From: Sandaracinus amylolyticus
GTDB lineage: Bacteria; Myxococcota_A; Polyangia; Polyangiales; Sandaracinaceae
Direction of reading: 5' to 3'
Length of the DNA: 64,000 nt
Assembly: GCF_000737325.1 (NCBI RefSeq)
Contig: NZ_CP011125.1
Span: 6,200,001 to 6,264,000, forward strand
Under the pieces are notes generated by a model, which saw only the letters and a list, made by a program, of their open reading frames with translations, searched no databases and was not told the origin of the DNA. The position numbers and the translations under genes were made by a program. Each line of letters begins with the position of its first letter. Within the stretch, counting starts at the first letter, position 1. Of the stretch, positions 17,578-26,588 are shown piece by piece.

Positions 17578-20232
17578 ATGAACGCACGCTCCATCGTTCC
17601 GACTCTCGCGCTCGCAGCGCTCGTGCTCGCTGGCTGCGGCGACGACGACTCGTCAGCCACGCCCGACGCAGGCGCCCGCGACGATGCGAGCGCCCCGACG
17701 CAGGACTCCGGACCGCCCGGCTGTGCCCCCGGCACGTCGATGTGCGGCGACATCTGCGCGGACACCGACAGCTCGCGCGCACACTGCGGCGAGTGCGGCA
17801 ACGCGTGCGCGGCGGGCGAGGCATGCCTCGAAGGCTCGTGCGCGATCGTGTGCCCCGGGTCGCAGAGCGCGTGCGACGGCGTCTGCGCGGATCTCGACAG
17901 CGACCGCCGTCACTGCGGCGAGTGCGGCGCGACCTGCGACGCGGGTGAGCTCTGCGTCGACGGCGCGTGCGCGGTGTCGTGCCCGTCGGGCCAGACGCTC
18001 TGCGGCACGACGTGCGTCGACACGCAGTCGGAGCCCTCGCACTGCGGGGAGTGCGGAAACGCGTGCGACGCGGGCGAGGTGTGCAGCGAGGGCACGTGCG
18101 CGGCGACGTGCTCGAGCGGCCTCACCGAGTGCGACGACGCGTGCGTCGACACCAACGACGACCCGTCGAACTGCGGGGCGTGCGGCAACGAGTGCGCGAC
18201 CGAAGCGGACGGCGCGGGCGGCGCGTGCATCGCGGGGAGCTGCCGGACGCTGTGCGAGCCGGGATACGGCGATTGCGACGCCGATCTCACGAGCGCGACC
18301 GGCAACGGCTGCGAGACCGCGGTGTCGACCGACGTGACGAACTGCGGCGCGTGCGGGAACGCGTGCGATCTCGCGAACGCGACCGCCGGCTGCGACGCGG
18401 GCGGCTGCGTGATCGCGACCTGCGACGAGGGCTTCCTCGACTGCGACACGTCGCCCACCAACGGCTGCGAGGTGAGCCTCGCGGACGACGCGGCGAACTG
18501 CGGCGCGTGCGGCAACGCGTGCGCGGCGGGTGAGGTGTGCGGCGCCGGCGCGTGCGTGGTGCCGGCGGGCGAGGACTGCGGCAACCCCATCGCGCTGACC
18601 CCCGGGCGTCACGTGCTGACGTGGACGGCCGCGGACGCCGACTACATCACGAGCACGCCGGCCTGCGGCGCGGGCTACGCGCCGGCCGGGCCCGACGTCG
18701 TCTTCAGCTACACGAACACGAGCGCCGCGCAGGAGTGGATCTCCACGTTCTTCGAGAAGCCGGAAGGGGCACGCTGGCATGCGCTCGTCACGACGGGCGC
18801 GGCCTGCGGCACGCTCGACGGAGCGCTCTGCACGAGTGACTTCTACTCGCCGTTCCTCGGTGGCGGCGCGCTGCTGGCGCCGGGGCAGACGGCACACCTC
18901 TATCTGATCGACTCGGTGAGCGGCGGGGCGCCGCTCTCGCGCCCGCTCACGGTCGACTTCGACGCGACGGCGTGTGACGCGACGCCCTCGATGACGCGCC
19001 TCATTCCGGCGAACGGTGGGACGACGCCGATCCGCGCCGCGACGTTCACCGCGCAGTTCTCGGCGCCGGCCGTGCCGGGCGGCACCGTGACCATCACCGG
19101 CAACATGGGCACTGCGCTCTCGTACCCGGTGGGCACCGAGGCCACTGCTCCCGCCCGTCTCGACGAGGCGACGCGAACGATCCTCACGATCGACCCCGGG
19201 ATCTCGTTCCCGCCCGGCGAGCAGCTCACGATCAGCTGGACCGGCCTCAACCTCAGGACCTGCAGCCCCACCACGAGCGTCCCCGCGCCGACGCCGACGT
19301 GGCAGGTCACGGTGCGCACGCCGCCCTGTACGCCCGGGATGGCCGGGATGATCGGGGACACCGTCGCGATCCACTCGGTGGGCGGGTCGTACGCCGCAGA
19401 GCAGTACGTCGCCGCGGACAGCGACCCCAACGGCTACGTGTACGTCGGCGGGACGGCCGCCTTGTGGCGCTTCCCCAAGGCGGGCGGCGCCGGCACGAAC
19501 CTCGTCGGCAGCTCGCCGATCACGAGCGATCACCTCGGCTACGCGATGCTGATCGACGGTCAGAACATCTTCACCGTCGAGAGCGACTCGGCTCCCATCC
19601 CGACGGGCCACCTCTACCGCGTCTCCACCGACGGCGGTGCGACCTGGAGCGTCGAGGAGTACATGGAGTTCTCCGTCGCGCCAAACGACGACTTCCGCGG
19701 CGTGACGATCTCGGGCGACCGGATCTACCTCGTCACGCACGAAGACTCGACCGCGACGGGGCCCTACCCGGCGCAGCCGACGCAGATCTGGTCGGTGCCC
19801 CGCGTCGCGACGACTCTGCCGGTCGAGCCCGTGCTCGAGCTCGAGGTCGCGGAGGGCGACTGCACGAGCGTCGTGCGAGACGCGAGCTTCTACTACCTCG
19901 TCTGTGACGGCGCGGGCGCGATCATTCGTTATGCGCACGACGGCACCGGTCGTCGGACCATGCCCAATCGCTGGCACGTCGAGACGAACGCGACGGTCAA
20001 CGCCCTCCACGGGAGCGACACCGACGCCGACGGCGTGTTCGACGTTCTCTACTACCGCGCCGCCGCGGAGCAGATCGACTACGTCTGCAACCCCGCGACG
20101 TCGCCGTACGTCGATCATCTCGTGCGCTTCAGCACCGTGACGGCCAGCGCCTACGGGCTCGGGCTCGATCCGGTCGGCGGGGTCCTCTGGTCGTACGACG
20201 ACGACACCTACGAAATCGTGTCGGTGCAGTGA
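17578..20232 (+). CDS. Cys-rich repeat lipoprotein with SbsA-like and propeller-like domains
   Basis: An 884-aa lipoprotein (lipobox Cys20, LVLAGCGDDD). Residues ~45-330 carry eight or so copies of a Cys-rich unit centred on CGECGNAC or CGACGNAC, interleaved with G-x-x-x-C-D. A beta domain follows at ~340-460, then an SbsA-like Ig domain (~465-580, starting MTRLIPANGGTTPIRAATF). The C-terminal ~300 residues resemble a beta-propeller (YVYVGGTAALWRFPKAGG, GHLYRVSTDGGATW, QIWSVP). It is the upstream member of a tandem paralogous pair; the next gene begins at its stop codon. Probably exposed at the cell surface. No enzymatic motif is seen. Confidence 0.85.
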   Translation: MNARSIVPTLALAALVLAGCGDDDSSATPDAGARDDASAPTQDSGPPGCAPGTSMCGDICADTDSSRAHCGECGNACAAGEACLEGSCAIVCPGSQSACDGVCADLDSDRRHCGECGATCDAGELCVDGACAVSCPSGQTLCGTTCVDTQSEPSHCGECGNACDAGEVCSEGTCAATCSSGLTECDDACVDTNDDPSNCGACGNECATEADGAGGACIAGSCRTLCEPGYGDCDADLTSATGNGCETAVSTDVTNCGACGNACDLANATAGCDAGGCVIATCDEGFLDCDTSPTNGCEVSLADDAANCGACGNACAAGEVCGAGACVVPAGEDCGNPIALTPGRHVLTWTAADADYITSTPACGAGYAPAGPDVVFSYTNTSAAQEWISTFFEKPEGARWHALVTTGAACGTLDGALCTSDFYSPFLGGGALLAPGQTAHLYLIDSVSGGAPLSRPLTVDFDATACDATPSMTRLIPANGGTTPIRAATFTAQFSAPAVPGGTVTITGNMGTALSYPVGTEATAPARLDEATRTILTIDPGISFPPGEQLTISWTGLNLRTCSPTTSVPAPTPTWQVTVRTPPCTPGMAGMIGDTVAIHSVGGSYAAEQYVAADSDPNGYVYVGGTAALWRFPKAGGAGTNLVGSSPITSDHLGYAMLIDGQNIFTVESDSAPIPTGHLYRVSTDGGATWSVEEYMEFSVAPNDDFRGVTISGDRIYLVTHEDSTATGPYPAQPTQIWSVPRVATTLPVEPVLELEVAEGDCTSVVRDASFYYLVCDGAGAIIRYAHDGTGRRTMPNRWHVETNATVNALHGSDTDADGVFDVLYYRAAAEQIDYVCNPATSPYVDHLVRFSTVTASAYGLGLDPVGGVLWSYDDDTYEIVSVQ

Positions 20233-20261
20233 CCCCCATGAACGAGAACGGAAGCGAAGCC

Positions 20262-22616
20262 ATGCTTGCAAGAACGCTCTGGATCGGTCTGGCACTGACG
20301 CTCGTCCTCGTGGGCTGCGGAGGCGACGACGACGGCACGGACCCCGGTGTCGACGCCTCGACGCCGCTCGTCGACGCGGGTCCGCTCGAGTGCGCCGACG
20401 GCACGACGCGCTGCGGAACGGAGTGCGTCAGCACGAGCGAATCGCGGCGGAACTGCGGCGCGTGCGGCAATGCGTGCGCCGCGGGCGAGGCCTGCGTCGA
20501 CGGCGAGTGCGGCGTGCTCTGTCCTTCGAGCCAGACCGAGTGCGGCGGCACGTGCGCCGACCTCGCGACGGATCGCTCGAACTGCGGTGAGTGCGGCAAC
20601 GCGTGCGGCGCGGGTCAGGTCTGCGCCGACGGCGAGTGCGCGGTGTCGTGCCCCGAGGGGCAGGTCGTCTGCGGAGGCGTCTGCGCCGACCTCCAGAGCA
20701 GCCACGCGAACTGCGGTGAGTGCGGCAACGCGTGCGCGCCCGGCGCGGTGTGCAACGCGGGCCACTGCGAGATCACCTGCGGTGGCTCGCTCGCCGCGTG
20801 CGACGGCGCGTGCGTCTCGCTCGCGACCTCGCCCGACCACTGCGGCGCGTGCGGCAACGCCTGCCCGGCGGTCGCGGGCGGAACGCCGTTCTGCTCGAAC
20901 GGCAGCTGCCGATTCGAGTGCAGCGCGCTCCAGGGCGATTGCAACGGCATCGCCACGGACGGTTGCGAGACGCCGCTCGCGACCGACGTCGAGAACTGCG
21001 GCGGGTGCGGCATCGGCTGCGAGCTCGCGGACGCGGTGGCGGGCTGCAGCGCAGGCGAGTGCGTGCTCGCGAGCTGCGACGCCGGCTTCGACGACTGCGA
21101 CGGCGCGCCGGAGAACGGCTGCGAGGCGGAGCTCGCGACCGACGCCCTGAACTGCGGCGCGTGCGGCACCGTCTGCGGTGTGGATCAGGCCTGCGTTCGC
21201 TCGACCTGCATCGCGGCCGGGGGCGGCGGCGCGGGCGCGGGCGACAGGTGCGAGAGCGCGATCCCGCTCACGGTCGGGACGAACACGATCACCTGGGAGG
21301 CGGCGACGAACGACTACCTCCGCGAGCGAGCGTCGTGCAGCACCAGCGCCGGCCTCAACGGACCGGACATCGTCCTGTCGTACACGGCGCCGGCCAACCA
21401 GGCGCTCACGTTCACGTTCCACAAGGCGAACTCCGCGAGCTCCGCGACGAGCTACGCGCCGCTCCTCGTCTCGCTCGTGACGACGTGTGGTGATCCCGAC
21501 AGCGAGATCGCCTGCCTGTACGCGAGCACCTTGAGCGCTGCGATGCAGCCGACCGACCAGGTCGTCGTCCCTGCCGGTACGACCGTCTACGTCCACGTGA
21601 TCGACTCCGGCACGGCCAGCGATCTCCCGCCGCTGCCGAACCCGCTCACCGTCGACGTCACCGCGACGCAGGTCGCGTGCGCGCCCGGCATCGGGGGCGT
21701 CGTGGGCAACACGCAGACCGACGTCATCACGAACATCGGCACGGTGACCGCCGACTACCTGGCGGTCGACGACGAGTACTTCTACGTGGGCGACAGCTCG
21801 GCCTTCTTCCGCGCCCCGCGTGCGGGCGGATCGCATCAGGACATCGAGGCGGCCGCAGGGCTGACCAGCTCTCACCTCGGGGCCGCGATGGCGATCCACG
21901 GCGACGACATCTACATGGTCGAGGCGACCACCTCGAGCACCGTCGGCAGTCGCGGTCGCCTCTTCCGCATCTCGCGAGACGGTGGCGTGACCTGGCGCAT
22001 CGAGGACTACGCGGACTTCTTCCCGATCCCGGCCGACGACTTCAGGTCGGCCTACGTCTACGGCGACAAGCTGTACCTCCTGACGGAAGAGGACAGCACC
22101 GGCGTGTCCACCGAGATCTGGTCGGTCGATCTCGGCGTCACGCTCGACGACACCACTCGTTTCGTCGCCGCCGTCCAAGAGCGTGTCCTCTCGCCGAGCA
22201 GCACCCCCGGCATGGGCGACTGCAACGGGCTCACCCGCGACGCGACGTACTTCTACCTCGCATGCGTCGACACGACGTCCACGGACACCCTCTTCCGCGT
22301 TCCGGTCGCGGGGGGAGCGCCCGAGGTGATGTTCGCGTCGCCTGCGTTCGACATCAATTCCTCGGTGTCGAGCACGCTGCGCGGCGGCGACACCGACGCC
22401 GACGGCACCTTCGACGTCCTCTACCTGGTCGGCGCCGCGAGCAGCGGCGACTTCACCGATACCGTGCAGTTCGTCTGCGAGCCCGCGGGTCCCTCCCCGA
22501 CGCTCTCCACGCTGGCGAACGTCACCGGAATGACGGGCGGTCTCGCGATCGACCCGGCCACCGGCGCGCTCGTGACGTTCGACGACTCGGCTGACGAATT
22601 CGTCGTGATCCAGTGA
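20262..22616 (+). CDS. Cys-rich repeat lipoprotein, paralogue of upstream gene
   Basis: A 784-aa lipoprotein (MLARTLWIGLALTLVLVGC, Cys19). Start at 20262 gives a normal signal peptide; a GTG at 20229 overlapping the previous stop and an ATG at 20238 are alternatives. It repeats the layout of the preceding protein: CG(A/E)CGNAC units over ~35-310, a beta domain, then a propeller-like C-terminus (FYVGDSSAFFRAPRAGG, GRLFRISRDGGVTW, TEIWSVD). It lacks the ~115-residue SbsA-like Ig domain of its neighbour, so the pair arose by tandem duplication followed by domain gain or loss. Likely surface-exposed; no enzymatic motif is visible. Confidence 0.85.
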   Translation: MLARTLWIGLALTLVLVGCGGDDDGTDPGVDASTPLVDAGPLECADGTTRCGTECVSTSESRRNCGACGNACAAGEACVDGECGVLCPSSQTECGGTCADLATDRSNCGECGNACGAGQVCADGECAVSCPEGQVVCGGVCADLQSSHANCGECGNACAPGAVCNAGHCEITCGGSLAACDGACVSLATSPDHCGACGNACPAVAGGTPFCSNGSCRFECSALQGDCNGIATDGCETPLATDVENCGGCGIGCELADAVAGCSAGECVLASCDAGFDDCDGAPENGCEAELATDALNCGACGTVCGVDQACVRSTCIAAGGGGAGAGDRCESAIPLTVGTNTITWEAATNDYLRERASCSTSAGLNGPDIVLSYTAPANQALTFTFHKANSASSATSYAPLLVSLVTTCGDPDSEIACLYASTLSAAMQPTDQVVVPAGTTVYVHVIDSGTASDLPPLPNPLTVDVTATQVACAPGIGGVVGNTQTDVITNIGTVTADYLAVDDEYFYVGDSSAFFRAPRAGGSHQDIEAAAGLTSSHLGAAMAIHGDDIYMVEATTSSTVGSRGRLFRISRDGGVTWRIEDYADFFPIPADDFRSAYVYGDKLYLLTEEDSTGVSTEIWSVDLGVTLDDTTRFVAAVQERVLSPSSTPGMGDCNGLTRDATYFYLACVDTTSTDTLFRVPVAGGAPEVMFASPAFDINSSVSSTLRGGDTDADGTFDVLYLVGAASSGDFTDTVQFVCEPAGPSPTLSTLANVTGMTGGLAIDPATGALVTFDDSADEFVVIQ

Positions 22617-22690
22617 TCCTCGGCGCTCACGCCGCGACTCGCTCGCAGAGCAGTCGCGGCGCACGCGTCGCAACAGGAGCGTTCCCCTCG

Positions 22691-23428
22691 ATGCAGCCTC
22701 GTAGCGATCTCGGTCGCGCGCCCCGCGCGATCTTCGTCCTGGGTGTCGTCCTGCTCGCTGCGTGCGGCGACTCGGACGGCTCCGGCGCCGACTCCGGCGC
22801 GCCTCTCGACGCGCCGATGGAGGACGCATTCGTGCCGGGCGCGCTCTGCTCGAACGAGCTCCTCGACGGCCACGAGACGTCGGTCGACTGCGGCGGGCCG
22901 GAGTGCACGGCCTGCGGCGCCGGTCGTGGGTGTCGCGCCGCCAGCGACTGCGCGGACGGTGTGTGTCAGCGCGGCTTCTGCCTCGAGCCGAGCTGCGTGG
23001 ACGGTGTCGAGAACGGCGCGGAAGTCGGCGTGGACTGCGGCGGCGAGTGCGGGCTCTGCCCCGAGGGCGAGCCGTGCACGGCGAACTCGGAGTGCGAGAG
23101 CGGCCGCTGCGGCGCGGGCGCGATCTGCGCCGCGGCGACCTGCGACGACGGTCTGCGCAACCAGGGCGAGAGCGACACCGACTGCGGCGGCCCGTGCGAG
23201 CGCTGCCCGCCCGAGGCGATGTGCACGACCGCCGATGACTGCGAGAGCCTGCGCTGCGTGCTCGGGCGCTGCCTCGCGCCGAGCTGCAACGATCGGACGC
23301 GGAACCAGGACGAGGCGGGCATCGACTGCGGCGGGGCGCTGTGCCCGCGCTGCGGCCCCGGCCTCACGTGCACCCTCGACGCCGATTGTGCGAGCGGGGA
23401 CTGCAACGCCGAGAACCGCTGCGAGTGA
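22691..23428 (+). CDS. Cys-rich lipoprotein with repeated CGG modules
   Basis: A 245-aa lipoprotein. The ATG at 22691 gives signal peptide MQPRSDLGRAPRAIFVLGVV with lipobox Cys25 (LLAACGDSDG). The mature part holds four copies of a module with the pattern N-x-x-x-E-x-x-x-D-C-G-G-x-x-C-x-x-C (for example ETSVDCGGPECTACG, SDTDCGGPCERCPP), each followed by a C-x-x-x-x-x-C-x-x-x-x-C segment. These resemble Cys-rich surface repeats common in myxobacteria. It lies 37 nt upstream of the fused VWA gene and 75 nt after the paralogue pair, so the four genes may form one surface-protein cluster. Confidence 0.8.
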   Translation: MQPRSDLGRAPRAIFVLGVVLLAACGDSDGSGADSGAPLDAPMEDAFVPGALCSNELLDGHETSVDCGGPECTACGAGRGCRAASDCADGVCQRGFCLEPSCVDGVENGAEVGVDCGGECGLCPEGEPCTANSECESGRCGAGAICAAATCDDGLRNQGESDTDCGGPCERCPPEAMCTTADDCESLRCVLGRCLAPSCNDRTRNQDEAGIDCGGALCPRCGPGLTCTLDADCASGDCNAENRCE

Positions 23429-23465: not shown

Positions 23466-26400
23466 ATGAAGCACGTTCGCGTATGGAGCGCCGCTGCGCT
23501 GGTCACCGGATCGCTTGCCGCGAGCCCCTCGGGCGCGAGCGCCGCGCCGCCGGTCATCGCCTTCACGTCGCCGACGGCGATCGAAGAGGGTCGTGAGGTC
23601 ACGCTCGAAGTGACGGTCACGGACCCCGAAGGCGCGCCGGTCACGTGGAGCTGGGACACCGACGGCCCCGACGGTGTGTTCGGTGATCATCCGAACGCGG
23701 CGTCGTTCACGGTGCCCGCGGCGGAGACCGACGGGCCCGGCAACCTGCGCATCGGCGTGCGCGCGACGGACGGCACGGAGACCACGACCGTGTACCGAAC
23801 GATCACCGTCGCGAACGTCGCTCCGGAGATCACGAGCTTCCCGCTCACGACGGGCTCGGTCCGTCACGAGTACCGTTACGAGCTGCGCACGAGCGATCCC
23901 GCCGGCGCGAACGATCCGATCACGTACGCGCTGACGGCGCGCCCGCCCGGCATGGAGGTCGTCGACGGAGTCGTGACCTGGACGCCCACGATCGATCAGC
24001 GCGGCCGCGCGTTCGACGTCACGGTGCGAGCAGCCGATGGAGACGGCGCGACCGACACGCAGTCGTGGACGATCGAGATCGCCCGCAACACCGCGCCCTC
24101 GGTGCCGAGCCTGTCCTCGCCGATCGAGCGCGCGCGCATCGCGGGAGACGAGCCGACGACCCTGACGGTCCAGAACGCGACCGATCCCGACGGTGACCCG
24201 CTCGTGTATTTCTTCCGTCTCTCGCGCGAGTCGCAGTTCGACCCGGCGCGCGTGATCGGCTCGGGCGAGGTCGCGGAGCAGGAGGGCGAGACGACGTCGT
24301 GGACGACGAGCGAGCCGCTCGATCCCGGCCTCTGGTACTGGCAGGCGTGGGTCAGCGACGGCATCGTCGAGACGAGCCCGCGCTTCGGCTCGTTCATCGT
24401 CGGCGACACCGAGTACGAGCTGAACGCGCTGCCCGACGCGGGAACCCCCGACGCCGGCTCGGACTGGACCTCGCTGCTCGACGCGGGCCCGTCGAACGAC
24501 GCACCGCGCGGCGGCTGCGCGGTCGACGCGGGCGCCACGCGCGGATCGTCGGCGGCGTGGCTCGCGGGCGTGCTCGCGCTCGGGCTCGTGGCGTTCCGGC
24601 GCGCGCGCCGTAGTGCTGCGTCCGCGCTCGTGATGGCCGCGCTCACCGCGCTCGCGGTGGGCTGCACCGACGGCGAGCAGATGACGGGCGGCGACGGCGG
24701 TGCGGTCGTCGGCGACGACTCCGACTTCGACACCATCTCCGATGCCGACGAGGGCGCCGACGAGGGCGTCGACACGGACGAAGACAGCAACCCCGACTTT
24801 CGAGATCCCGACTCCGACGGCGACACGATCCCCGACTCCGCAGAGGCGGGCGATGAAGACCGCGCGACGCCGCCGGTCGACTCCGACGCCGACGGAACGC
24901 CCGACTACCGCGATCTCGACGCCGACGACAACGGCATCCCCGACGGCTTCGAGACGCGCGGCGACACCGACCTCGACGGCATTGCCGACCACGCGGATCT
25001 CGACGACGACGGCGACCTCGTGCGTGACGTCCTCGAGCTGATGGGCGTCGCCCTTCCCCCCGCGGACACCGACGGTGACGTCCTCGCGAACTACCACGAC
25101 CCCGACTGCGACGACGACCACATCCTCGACGGCGACGAGTGGAACGCCGACACCGACCAGGACGGCCTGCTCGACTTCGAAGATCACGATACCGACAACG
25201 ACGGCATCCCCGACGCGGTCGAGGCCGGCGACGCCGACATCTTCAGCGCGCCGCGCGACAGCGACGACGACGGCACGGCGGACTTCCGCGACACCGACAG
25301 CGACAACGACGGTCTCTCGGACTCGCTCGAGCGCGAGAGCGGCAGCGACCCGACTCGAGACGATAGCGACGGGGACGGCGTCTCCGATCTCATCGAGGTC
25401 GGCGCCGGCACCGACCCGAACGACGGCAGCGTCAGCCCGCGCACGCGCGGCGACTTCGTGTTCGTGGTGCCTTTCGAGGAGGCACCCGCGCCGGCGCGCG
25501 ACACGCTCCGCTTCCGCACGACGCTGCAGCTCGTCGACGTGTACTTCCTGTTCGACATCTCGGGCTCGATGAGCGGCGAGCTCGAGGCCCTCGCCGGCGC
25601 GGTGAGCACGATCTCGACCGACCTCACCTGCACCAGCTTCGGCCGCGCGTGCCGCGCGGACGGCGACTGCGACGGCGGTCAGGCGTGCAGCGTCGAGGGC
25701 GTGTGCATCGAGGATCCCGCGTTCAGCTCGTGCGTGGCGAGCGCATGGACCGGCGCGGGCATCTACGAGCAGGAGCTCGAGAACCTGCTCTCGGTGCAGG
25801 ACGATCCCGCACGCACCGCTGCGGCGCTCAACGTCGGCACCTTCGGCGGCACCGAGCAGCTCTTCCGCGCGGCGTGGGGCGTCGCCGATCCCGCGGGCGC
25901 GCCGGGCGTGGAGTCTGGCTGTGCGGTGCCGGCGCTCGGCCGGCTCGGCTGCCCGGCGTTCCGCGAGAACGCGCAGCGCATCCTCGTCATCTTCACCGAC
26001 GAGATCAGCTCGGGCTCCGAGACCGCCGCGCAGGCGGGCGCGGCCCTGCGCTACGCGAACATCACGACGATCGGCGTCTGGAGCGGCACGCCCGGCGCGG
26101 CGGCGCGCGACTCGCTCGTCCAGCTCGCACGCGCTTCGAATTCGTTCTCGTCCACGGGCCAGCCGCTCGTCTTCGAGGGCATGGACGGGGCGGTCGTGCC
26201 TCGCGTGATCAGCGCCATCAACGAGGTCGTCGAGGGTGTGCCGCTCCGCGTGACCATCACGTCGGCAGACGAGCCGGGCGACGCCGGTGACGCGCTGCAG
26301 TTCATCGATCACGTCGAGGTGAACGTCGCCAACCCGGACTGCACCGCGATCCGTCCGACCGAGGACACCGACGCGAACGGCCACGACGACGCGTTCCCCT

Positions 26401-26588
26401 CGCTGCTCCCCGGAACGCCGGTCTGCTGGGACGTCGTCGTCCGGCAGAACGACACGGTCGAGCCCGCGACGGTGCCGCTCGTCTTCCGCGCGCGGCTCAC
26501 GGTCCACGGCGACGGATCGCCGCTCGACTCGCGCATCGTGTACTTCCTCGTGCCGCCGGTGATCCCGGGTCCGGAAGTCCCGATCTGA
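23466..26588 (+). CDS. Fusion: MYXO-CTERM-tagged cadherin-like protein joined to VWA lipoprotein
   Basis: A 1040-aa protein that reads as two genes in one frame. Part 1 (1-381): Sec signal peptide (MKHVRVWSAAALVTGSLAAS), three Ig/cadherin-like repeats (~30-310), a linker, then a MYXO-CTERM-like sorting tail with Cys351 (RGGCAVDAG), a hydrophobic helix (~359-376) and RRARR. Part 2 (~382-1040): a second hydrophobic helix ending in lipobox Cys400 (LAVGC), Asp-rich thrombospondin-3-type calcium repeats (~405-665), and a VWA domain with MIDAS DISGS (~697). No stop or frameshift separates them. A nested GTG at 24588 could start part 2 independently, but no SD is visible. Predicted topology: both halves outside, joined by a two-helix hairpin with the Arg loop inside. 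Confidence 0.8.
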   Translation: MKHVRVWSAAALVTGSLAASPSGASAAPPVIAFTSPTAIEEGREVTLEVTVTDPEGAPVTWSWDTDGPDGVFGDHPNAASFTVPAAETDGPGNLRIGVRATDGTETTTVYRTITVANVAPEITSFPLTTGSVRHEYRYELRTSDPAGANDPITYALTARPPGMEVVDGVVTWTPTIDQRGRAFDVTVRAADGDGATDTQSWTIEIARNTAPSVPSLSSPIERARIAGDEPTTLTVQNATDPDGDPLVYFFRLSRESQFDPARVIGSGEVAEQEGETTSWTTSEPLDPGLWYWQAWVSDGIVETSPRFGSFIVGDTEYELNALPDAGTPDAGSDWTSLLDAGPSNDAPRGGCAVDAGATRGSSAAWLAGVLALGLVAFRRARRSAASALVMAALTALAVGCTDGEQMTGGDGGAVVGDDSDFDTISDADEGADEGVDTDEDSNPDFRDPDSDGDTIPDSAEAGDEDRATPPVDSDADGTPDYRDLDADDNGIPDGFETRGDTDLDGIADHADLDDDGDLVRDVLELMGVALPPADTDGDVLANYHDPDCDDDHILDGDEWNADTDQDGLLDFEDHDTDNDGIPDAVEAGDADIFSAPRDSDDDGTADFRDTDSDNDGLSDSLERESGSDPTRDDSDGDGVSDLIEVGAGTDPNDGSVSPRTRGDFVFVVPFEEAPAPARDTLRFRTTLQLVDVYFLFDISGSMSGELEALAGAVSTISTDLTCTSFGRACRADGDCDGGQACSVEGVCIEDPAFSSCVASAWTGAGIYEQELENLLSVQDDPARTAAALNVGTFGGTEQLFRAAWGVADPAGAPGVESGCAVPALGRLGCPAFRENAQRILVIFTDEISSGSETAAQAGAALRYANITTIGVWSGTPGAAARDSLVQLARASNSFSSTGQPLVFEGMDGAVVPRVISAINEVVEGVPLRVTITSADEPGDAGDALQFIDHVEVNVANPDCTAIRPTEDTDANGHDDAFPSLLPGTPVCWDVVVRQNDTVEPATVPLVFRARLTVHGDGSPLDSRIVYFLVPPVIPGPEVPI

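Follow-up and report, generated by a model that had tools for sequence, protein, structure and literature searches.

Why should a single reading frame contain two membrane-anchor signals back to back, and does their joint reflect an error, an accident or a way of making two surface proteins from one gene? The question is raised by a gene of Sandaracinus amylolyticus in a window of 64,000 nucleotides (positions 6,200,001 to 6,264,000 of contig NZ_CP011125.1), which is the whole stretch of DNA that we analysed and to which the coordinates of the gene refer. A first-pass annotation had described one uninterrupted frame at 23466-26588, and we confirmed it as 1040 codons without a stop. Its landmarks (Cys351, a helix, RRARR and the lipobox Cys400) lie where that annotation had placed them. 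The gene, its parts and its two upstream neighbours are as follows.

20229..22616, + strand: further upstream Cys-rich lipoprotein gene, MXAN_6577-like, with STIG1-like repeats; syntenic in the congener genome G002.
22613..23428, + strand: upstream Cys-rich lipoprotein gene, 37 bp before the fused gene; syntenic in G002.
23466..26588, + strand: fused gene, from ATG at 23466 to TGA at 26586-26588, 1040 aa, one frame without internal stop.
23466..23546, + strand: N-terminal Sec signal peptide (MKHVRVWSAAALVTGSLAASPSGASA, followed by APP), read from the sequence and conserved in G002.
23547..24404, + strand: Ig/PKD-like domains of the first half (Pfam He_PIG and PKD; beta-sandwich domains in the AlphaFold2 model).
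24510..24611, + strand: internal MYXO-CTERM-like sorting tail (TIGR03901 at most 18.3 bits, NF038112 match, hydropathy).
24597..24665, + strand: second signal, with the shared Arg cluster as n-region, a hydrophobic stretch (383-399) and the lipobox AVG-C400; the Cys is conserved in G002.
24666..25445, + strand: TSP3-type calcium-binding repeat region of the lipoprotein half (Pfam TSP3_bac; Asp-rich repeats in the translation).
25488..26240, + strand, boundaries approximate: VWA domain with the DISGSMS motif (Pfam VWA below threshold; AlphaFold2 model; Foldseek).

The fused gene has GGTGGAG, a possible ribosome-binding site, directly 5' of its start. In its product, Pfam places He_PIG/PKD-type Ig domains at residues 27-205, and NF038112 (myxosortase-dependent M36) matches residues 27-379, reaching profile position 1601 of 1604. 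The calcium repeats and the VWA domain that had been proposed for the second half also held up. TSP3_bac repeats lie near residues 611-630; the VWA match, at residues 833-892, is below the Pfam threshold, and the DISGSMS motif has the DxSxS form. In Foldseek, the best PDB match of the VWA region is integrin beta1 (7cec_B, E 9.4e-12, TMq 0.21). The modelled VWA region has flanking beta-strands. Within the same genome there are 18 matches to the fused protein, mostly against its TSP3-VWA lipoprotein half.

The two Cys-rich lipoprotein genes (20229-23428) are codirectional with the fused gene, and the likelier start of the one at 22613..23428 is an ATG within the frame (MQPRSDLG...LLAACGDS). Relatives of these genes lie 3' of the PKD gene in other genera, which indicates that the whole cluster has been reordered. 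Promoter and terminator prediction, which is uninformative at the G+C of this DNA, made no call in the region.

Both anchor signals meet in a short joint. In a 17-residue Kyte-Doolittle window, only two stretches of the protein have a mean above 1.4, residues 360-380 and 382-403. An Arg cluster separates them, and residues 356-400 are free of acidic residues. The first stretch belongs to the internal tail, which consists of GGC351-AVDAGATRG, a hydrophobic helix (361-377) and RRARR (378-382), with the C351 codon at 24516-24518 and the RRARR codons at 24597-24611. The invariant Cys, the hydrophobic helix and the Arg cluster of the MYXO-CTERM class are all present, and the tail scores 17.1-18.3 bits with TIGR03901, below the cut-off of 20. 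RRARR is followed in frame by SAASALVMAALTALAVG-C400 (codon 24663-24665), and with 658 further codons after RRARR the tail is not C-terminal. The second signal has the sequence features of the lipoprotein class, namely a positive n-region (RRARR), the hydrophobic stretch and AVG-C400, with Ala at -3, and it is internal (378-400) rather than N-terminal.

The charge pattern of the joint suggests a hairpin whose two ends lie outside while the Arg cluster stays in the cytoplasm. AlphaFold2 models two folded parts linked through residues 314-414, and because it gives no confident structure for that stretch, it is hydropathy and charge that point to the hairpin. Two back-to-back anchor signals would be expected to give this topology, and the fusion itself is real and present in two species.

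Sequencing error and a lost stop codon are both ruled out as the cause of the fusion by a congener and by recurrence. The genome is a single contig of 10,327,335 bases, and the published S. amylolyticus DSM 53668 genome is 10.33 Mb in a single contig at ~85x PacBio coverage (PMC5010890). The same fused frame is present in the congener (G002:C1:1279021-1282128, - strand), aligning with residues 3-1040 of the query at 84% identity and with no stop. At the DNA level the frame is colinear along its whole length. There are two indels, both of 3 bases and one of them at the joint, and the sequencing error that had been named as a possible refutation is excluded by this frame with its 3-base indels. 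G002 keeps the signal peptide, GGCAVD, the Arg cluster and the lipobox Cys. Just one TAG occurs near the expected stop, at 24611-24613, and it lies in another frame and is missing from the congener; third-position GC is at least 0.80 in every 40-codon block, joint included.

Both halves are under purifying selection at a dS of about 0.4 against the congener. dN/dS (NG86) is ~0.27 overall, with 0.27 in the PKD part, 0.22 in the TSP3 part and 0.25 in the VWA part, and it rises to 0.60 over residues 340-415 at the joint, looser than in the domains. Judged by these substitution rates, the looser joint resembles ordinary signal peptides, and the frame is nonetheless maintained. Because the congener frame is colinear and the architecture recurs throughout the phylum, the fusion is more than chance.

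Among ten genomes of the family, a match spanning the joint was found in only the two congeners. In G003, G005, G007 and G009 the PKD protein stops just past the Arg cluster (for example, LAGLALFRRRRRA and then the stop), and the three distinct split PKD tails tested score 31.7, 27.1 and 22.2 bits with TIGR03901, all above the cut-off. In the 7 other family genomes examined, the lipoprotein half is encoded by a gene of its own that has a lipobox, and in G003, G005 and G007 this gene adjoins the PKD gene and is transcribed divergently from it. On this comparison, the particular fusion in the window is a genus-level one, known from two congeners. The divergence of the halves in relatives indicates that the fusion came with a rearrangement and not by mere loss of a stop between collinear neighbours.

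These homologues bear on two suggestions of the first-pass annotation. Related genomes had been expected to show whether a stop near 24610 separates the halves. The halves are indeed separate in other genera, but they are divergent and not one stop apart, and the congener is fused. Likewise, of the two explanations offered, stop loss or a functional arrangement, the latter is favoured by a frame that is under selection and recurrent, whereas simple stop loss fits poorly with divergent halves.

Is the joint peculiar to this gene? As an unbiased test, we scanned the same genome with the MYXO-CTERM model and read each of the 82 hits (E up to 1) downstream. A stop follows within 10 codons in 68, at 20-44 codons in 5 and at 117 codons in 1, and 8 continue beyond that. 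Seven of the 82 run for more than 300 codons or beyond the fetched stretch, each directly into a second signal peptide.

Run-on tandems with a lipobox: the window gene; 41048 (+); 10249955 (-); 3194762 (-); 213837 (+); 9990039 (+).
Run-on tandem with a signal-peptidase-I site, into an OmpA-like protein: 867999 (+).

About one-twelfth of the MYXO-CTERM hits in this genome are in-frame tandems. As a control, we used a strict lipobox-plus-hydrophobicity rule, applied to the stop-terminated hits in all three frames. It picked out 4 of 9 run-ons, versus 3 of 73 stop-terminated hits (Fisher one-sided 0.002; 1e-6 with the seven assigned by eye), and those three are separate lipoprotein genes with their own Met and in another frame. 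Two run-ons were set aside. The eighth long one (L155) resembles a histidine kinase and is a false MYXO-CTERM hit, and the one that continues for 117 codons past the hit (L093) is a chance run-on. At another locus (L154, G000:C1:304646-304750) a MYXO-CTERM gene is followed by a separate lipoprotein in another frame, with its own Met and CTVDPYCFDC. This lipoprotein resembles the second half of a fused CDVDPYC group, and it is a split paralogue beside fused ones in the same genome.

We then ran profiles of the joint against the family, against 115 genomes of the order and against 377 of the phylum. Stop-free tandems with a lipobox had served to build these profiles, which biases the searches towards that form; among the matches listed, those that cover both signals number about 70 stop-free ones and four with a stop. 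Genuine tandems number 78 across Myxococcota, own genome and congener included, and all of the stop-free full-span hits that were fetched are genuine. The second site is of the lipobox type in 74 of the 78, with Gly at -1 in 63 of these 74, and of the signal-peptidase-I type in the other 4. Between the two sites, basic residues are about ten times as frequent as acidic ones, 15-38 residues lie between the Arg cluster and the second Cys, and the upstream Cys motif before helix 1 (GC or GCxC) is kept family after family. By both halves, 67 of the 78 tandems cluster into 22 groups, ten of them with at least two members. By this clustering, at least 22 families across Myxococcota carry the joint.

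The domains that are joined vary widely. They include an amidase with a beta-propeller-like lipoprotein, a nidogen-like protein with a MopE-repeat lipoprotein, and heparinase-like, GDSL lipase, M23 peptidase, alpha-amylase and OmpA/TraB-like proteins. Profile hits with an internal stop (L265-L273) were rejected as split pairs or apparent chance run-ons. L265 and L271 prove to be real split lipoprotein pairs, in which the second gene has its own Met after the stop, L269 is a split pair with a signal-peptidase-I-type second signal, and the remainder look like chance run-ons.

The strongest test of recurrence in this report is a search that was not tied to the joint. We used a whole protein of the largest group (L193) as the query against 235 genomes. 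In this family the two halves lie in one open frame at 58 loci in 54 genomes and are adjacent and split in 2 cases; a further 28 loci gave one half only at the threshold used. Some of these genomes lie outside the class of the window's organism, so that the fusion in the L193 family is old. The query (L193:2064-6344, + strand) and its homologues form a fused, phylum-wide family of ~1400 aa in which neither Pfam nor NCBIfam finds a domain. The L193 protein begins with an N-terminal lipoprotein-like signal (VFAC followed by GGGGCSGCEGC) and may carry three anchor signals.

We favour, with a probability of about 0.6, the reading that the window gene encodes one precursor of two surface proteins, with a hairpin that would be cut by myxosortase after C351 and by LspA before C400. 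This is the polyprotein that the first-pass annotation had proposed, and the recurrence of the joint in at least 22 families makes it the best reading, with cleavage predicted from sequence. Cutting at both sites is argued for chiefly by the retention of both cysteine motifs in unrelated families. The genome encodes a myxosortase, MrtC (242.9 bits, cut-off 195), and two LspA genes. In M. xanthus and in E. coli, MYXO-CTERM is cut by the myxosortase MrtX, and its Cys has been proposed to be lipidated before cutting (PMC11980579). Against the precursor reading stand the sub-threshold tail score, the Ala at -3 of the lipobox, the looser dN/dS of the joint, the low-confidence AlphaFold2 model there and the restriction of this particular fusion to one genus.

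We postulate the following sequence of events. Sec export would be begun by the first signal peptide and halted by helix 1, whose Arg cluster would be left in the cytoplasm. Helix 2 would resume export, with the same Arg cluster serving as its positive n-region, and the joint would form a hairpin in the membrane, leaving the two large domains outside. C351 would be lipidated, after which a myxosortase (MrtC in this genome) would cut on its distal side. Lgt and LspA would lipidate and cut at C400, and the C351-C400 hairpin would be discarded. A single message would thereby yield two products in a 1:1 ratio, an Ig/PKD protein anchored at its C-terminus and a TSP3-VWA lipoprotein anchored at its N-terminus.

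The main rival is a single uncut protein, in which a stable membrane hairpin tethers both domains and the two signals are relics. Lipo-invert (NF058595) already provides a model of a C-terminal anchoring hairpin whose second helix is lipobox-like, and that model matches the window joint weakly (18.2 bits versus a cut-off of 37). Relics should decay, however, whereas both cysteine motifs are retained across families, and the second site is a lipobox in 74 of the 78 tandems and a signal-peptidase-I-type site in the other four. A myxosortase and LspA are, moreover, both present in the genome. We regard an uncut protein as unlikely, although it deserves to be kept in view.

We give smaller odds to cutting at one site only, in which LspA would free the lipoprotein half and leave the first half anchored by an uncut helix, or the reverse. 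The MYXO-CTERM score of the fused gene is below threshold and its lipobox is ordinary, as such a protein might have. In addition, some tagged protein stays on the surface of M. xanthus after loss of the myxosortase, and the authors suggest that an uncut helix anchors it (PMC11980579). Nevertheless, G002 keeps GGCAVD and the Arg cluster, and the split homologues exceed the TIGR03901 cut-off, both of which speak against this reading.

Less probable again is internal initiation, by which a GTG at 24570 or 24588 would also start the lipoprotein alone, beside a fused read-through form. They precede C400 by 31 and 25 codons, a spacing usual for a lipoprotein start, and weakly led starts occur in high-GC bacteria. 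However, neither has a recognisable Shine-Dalgarno sequence (longest match 3 bases), and the sole nearby ATG (24633) is 10 codons from C400, which is too close. The true split pairs L265 and L271 have their own Met after the stop, and the fused product would persist regardless. No ATG, GTG or TTG is found from -35 to -12 in 19 of the 78 tandems, and no ATG in 48. Separate translation of the lipoprotein is ruled out as a general explanation, since a quarter of the tandems lack a common start codon in range.

A neutral accident, in which a stop was lost between adjacent genes and the result tolerated in one genus, would suit the separate halves in other genera and a fusion known from two congeners only, but it is the least credible reading given purifying selection on both sides of the frame at a dS of about 0.4, the same joint in at least 22 clusters and one phylum-wide family, and halves that are divergent in the relatives examined, contrary to simple stop loss between collinear neighbours.

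A precursor of two anchored proteins thus remains our preferred reading of the window gene, and some myxobacterial surface proteins may be produced in pairs and separated afterwards by cleavage. Whether this extends to a general two-signal route seems to us evenly balanced. In such a route, many tandems of MYXO-CTERM with a lipoprotein or signal-peptidase-I signal would share one Arg cluster, and the hairpin would be excised by myxosortase and LspA to give two lipid-anchored proteins in equal amounts, with at least one precursor kept fused phylum-wide. If the joint is processed, two membrane proteases that work on substrates of opposite topology act on one hairpin; an internal signal is acceptable to LspA, and a tag need not be terminal for myxosortase to use it. 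To our knowledge, making surface proteins by cleavage of a polyprotein is associated with viruses and eukaryotes and receives little discussion for bacteria. Since most accounts regard MYXO-CTERM as a C-terminal feature, lipoprotein halves may be overlooked.

TraA of Myxococcus xanthus and other TIGR03901 proteins resemble the fused gene product in being exported and in having a GC motif, a helix, an Arg cluster and a myxosortase gene in the genome. In those proteins the tail ends the protein, whereas the fused gene continues for its 658 codons past RRARR into a lipoprotein. The first-pass annotation had taken the in-frame joining to be new, which is not supported in full. Such joining recurs in many genes, an internal MYXO-CTERM has been published, and NCBIfam models anchors in mid-protein or in a hairpin as midcut-by-XrtH and lipo-invert.

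Of these, midcut-by-XrtH (NF033207) presumably places a sorting signal in mid-protein, as in the fused gene. It differs in its enzyme (the exosortase XrtH) and its motif; one tandem joint (L206) matches it weakly, at 18.4 bits versus a cut-off of 45, and the window joint does not match. Abdul Halim and co-workers reportedly described in 2017 an ArtA-dependent Tat substrate of Haloferax volcanii whose tripartite signal, recognised by a sortase-like enzyme, is not C-terminal. That protein differs from the fused gene in being archaeal and in using an unrelated enzyme, and we know of no second lipoprotein signal in it.

Lipo-invert resembles the window joint in having a pair of helices and a lipobox-like Cys at the end of the second. 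The NF058595 hairpin, however, is C-terminal, is followed by a short tail and lacks the MYXO-CTERM motif, whereas the hairpin of the fused gene is internal. One locus of the same order (L253, G047:C186:5383-5718) is a clear NF058595 member, with two helices, the second ending in PSCG, and a short tail. The L253 protein is a possible evolutionary neighbour of the tandem joint.

The closest published case is MXAN_5598 of M. xanthus, in which an internal MYXO-CTERM is followed by outer membrane beta-barrel and OmpA domains; internal motifs were noted as rare, and this protein was considered a probable fusion of two genes and proposed to be processed (PMC11980579). It has been detected in outer membrane vesicles (PMC4158809). 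Both MXAN_5598 and the fused gene have an internal MYXO-CTERM in a two-part protein, but the second half of the former is an OmpA-type outer membrane protein and that of the latter a TSP3-VWA lipoprotein. Two of our tandems (L141 and L202) look OmpA/TraB-like and are of the MXAN_5598 kind. The published account of MXAN_5598 (PMC11980579) differs from ours in that it has no lipoprotein-type second half, shared Arg cluster or recurrence in many families. In the literature covered, a scope that stopped short of Haft's in silico myxosortase paper, we came across no account of the lipoprotein-type tandem or its recurrence. Thus, an internal MYXO-CTERM was already on record in MXAN_5598, and what is new beside it is the lipoprotein-type tandem and its wide recurrence.
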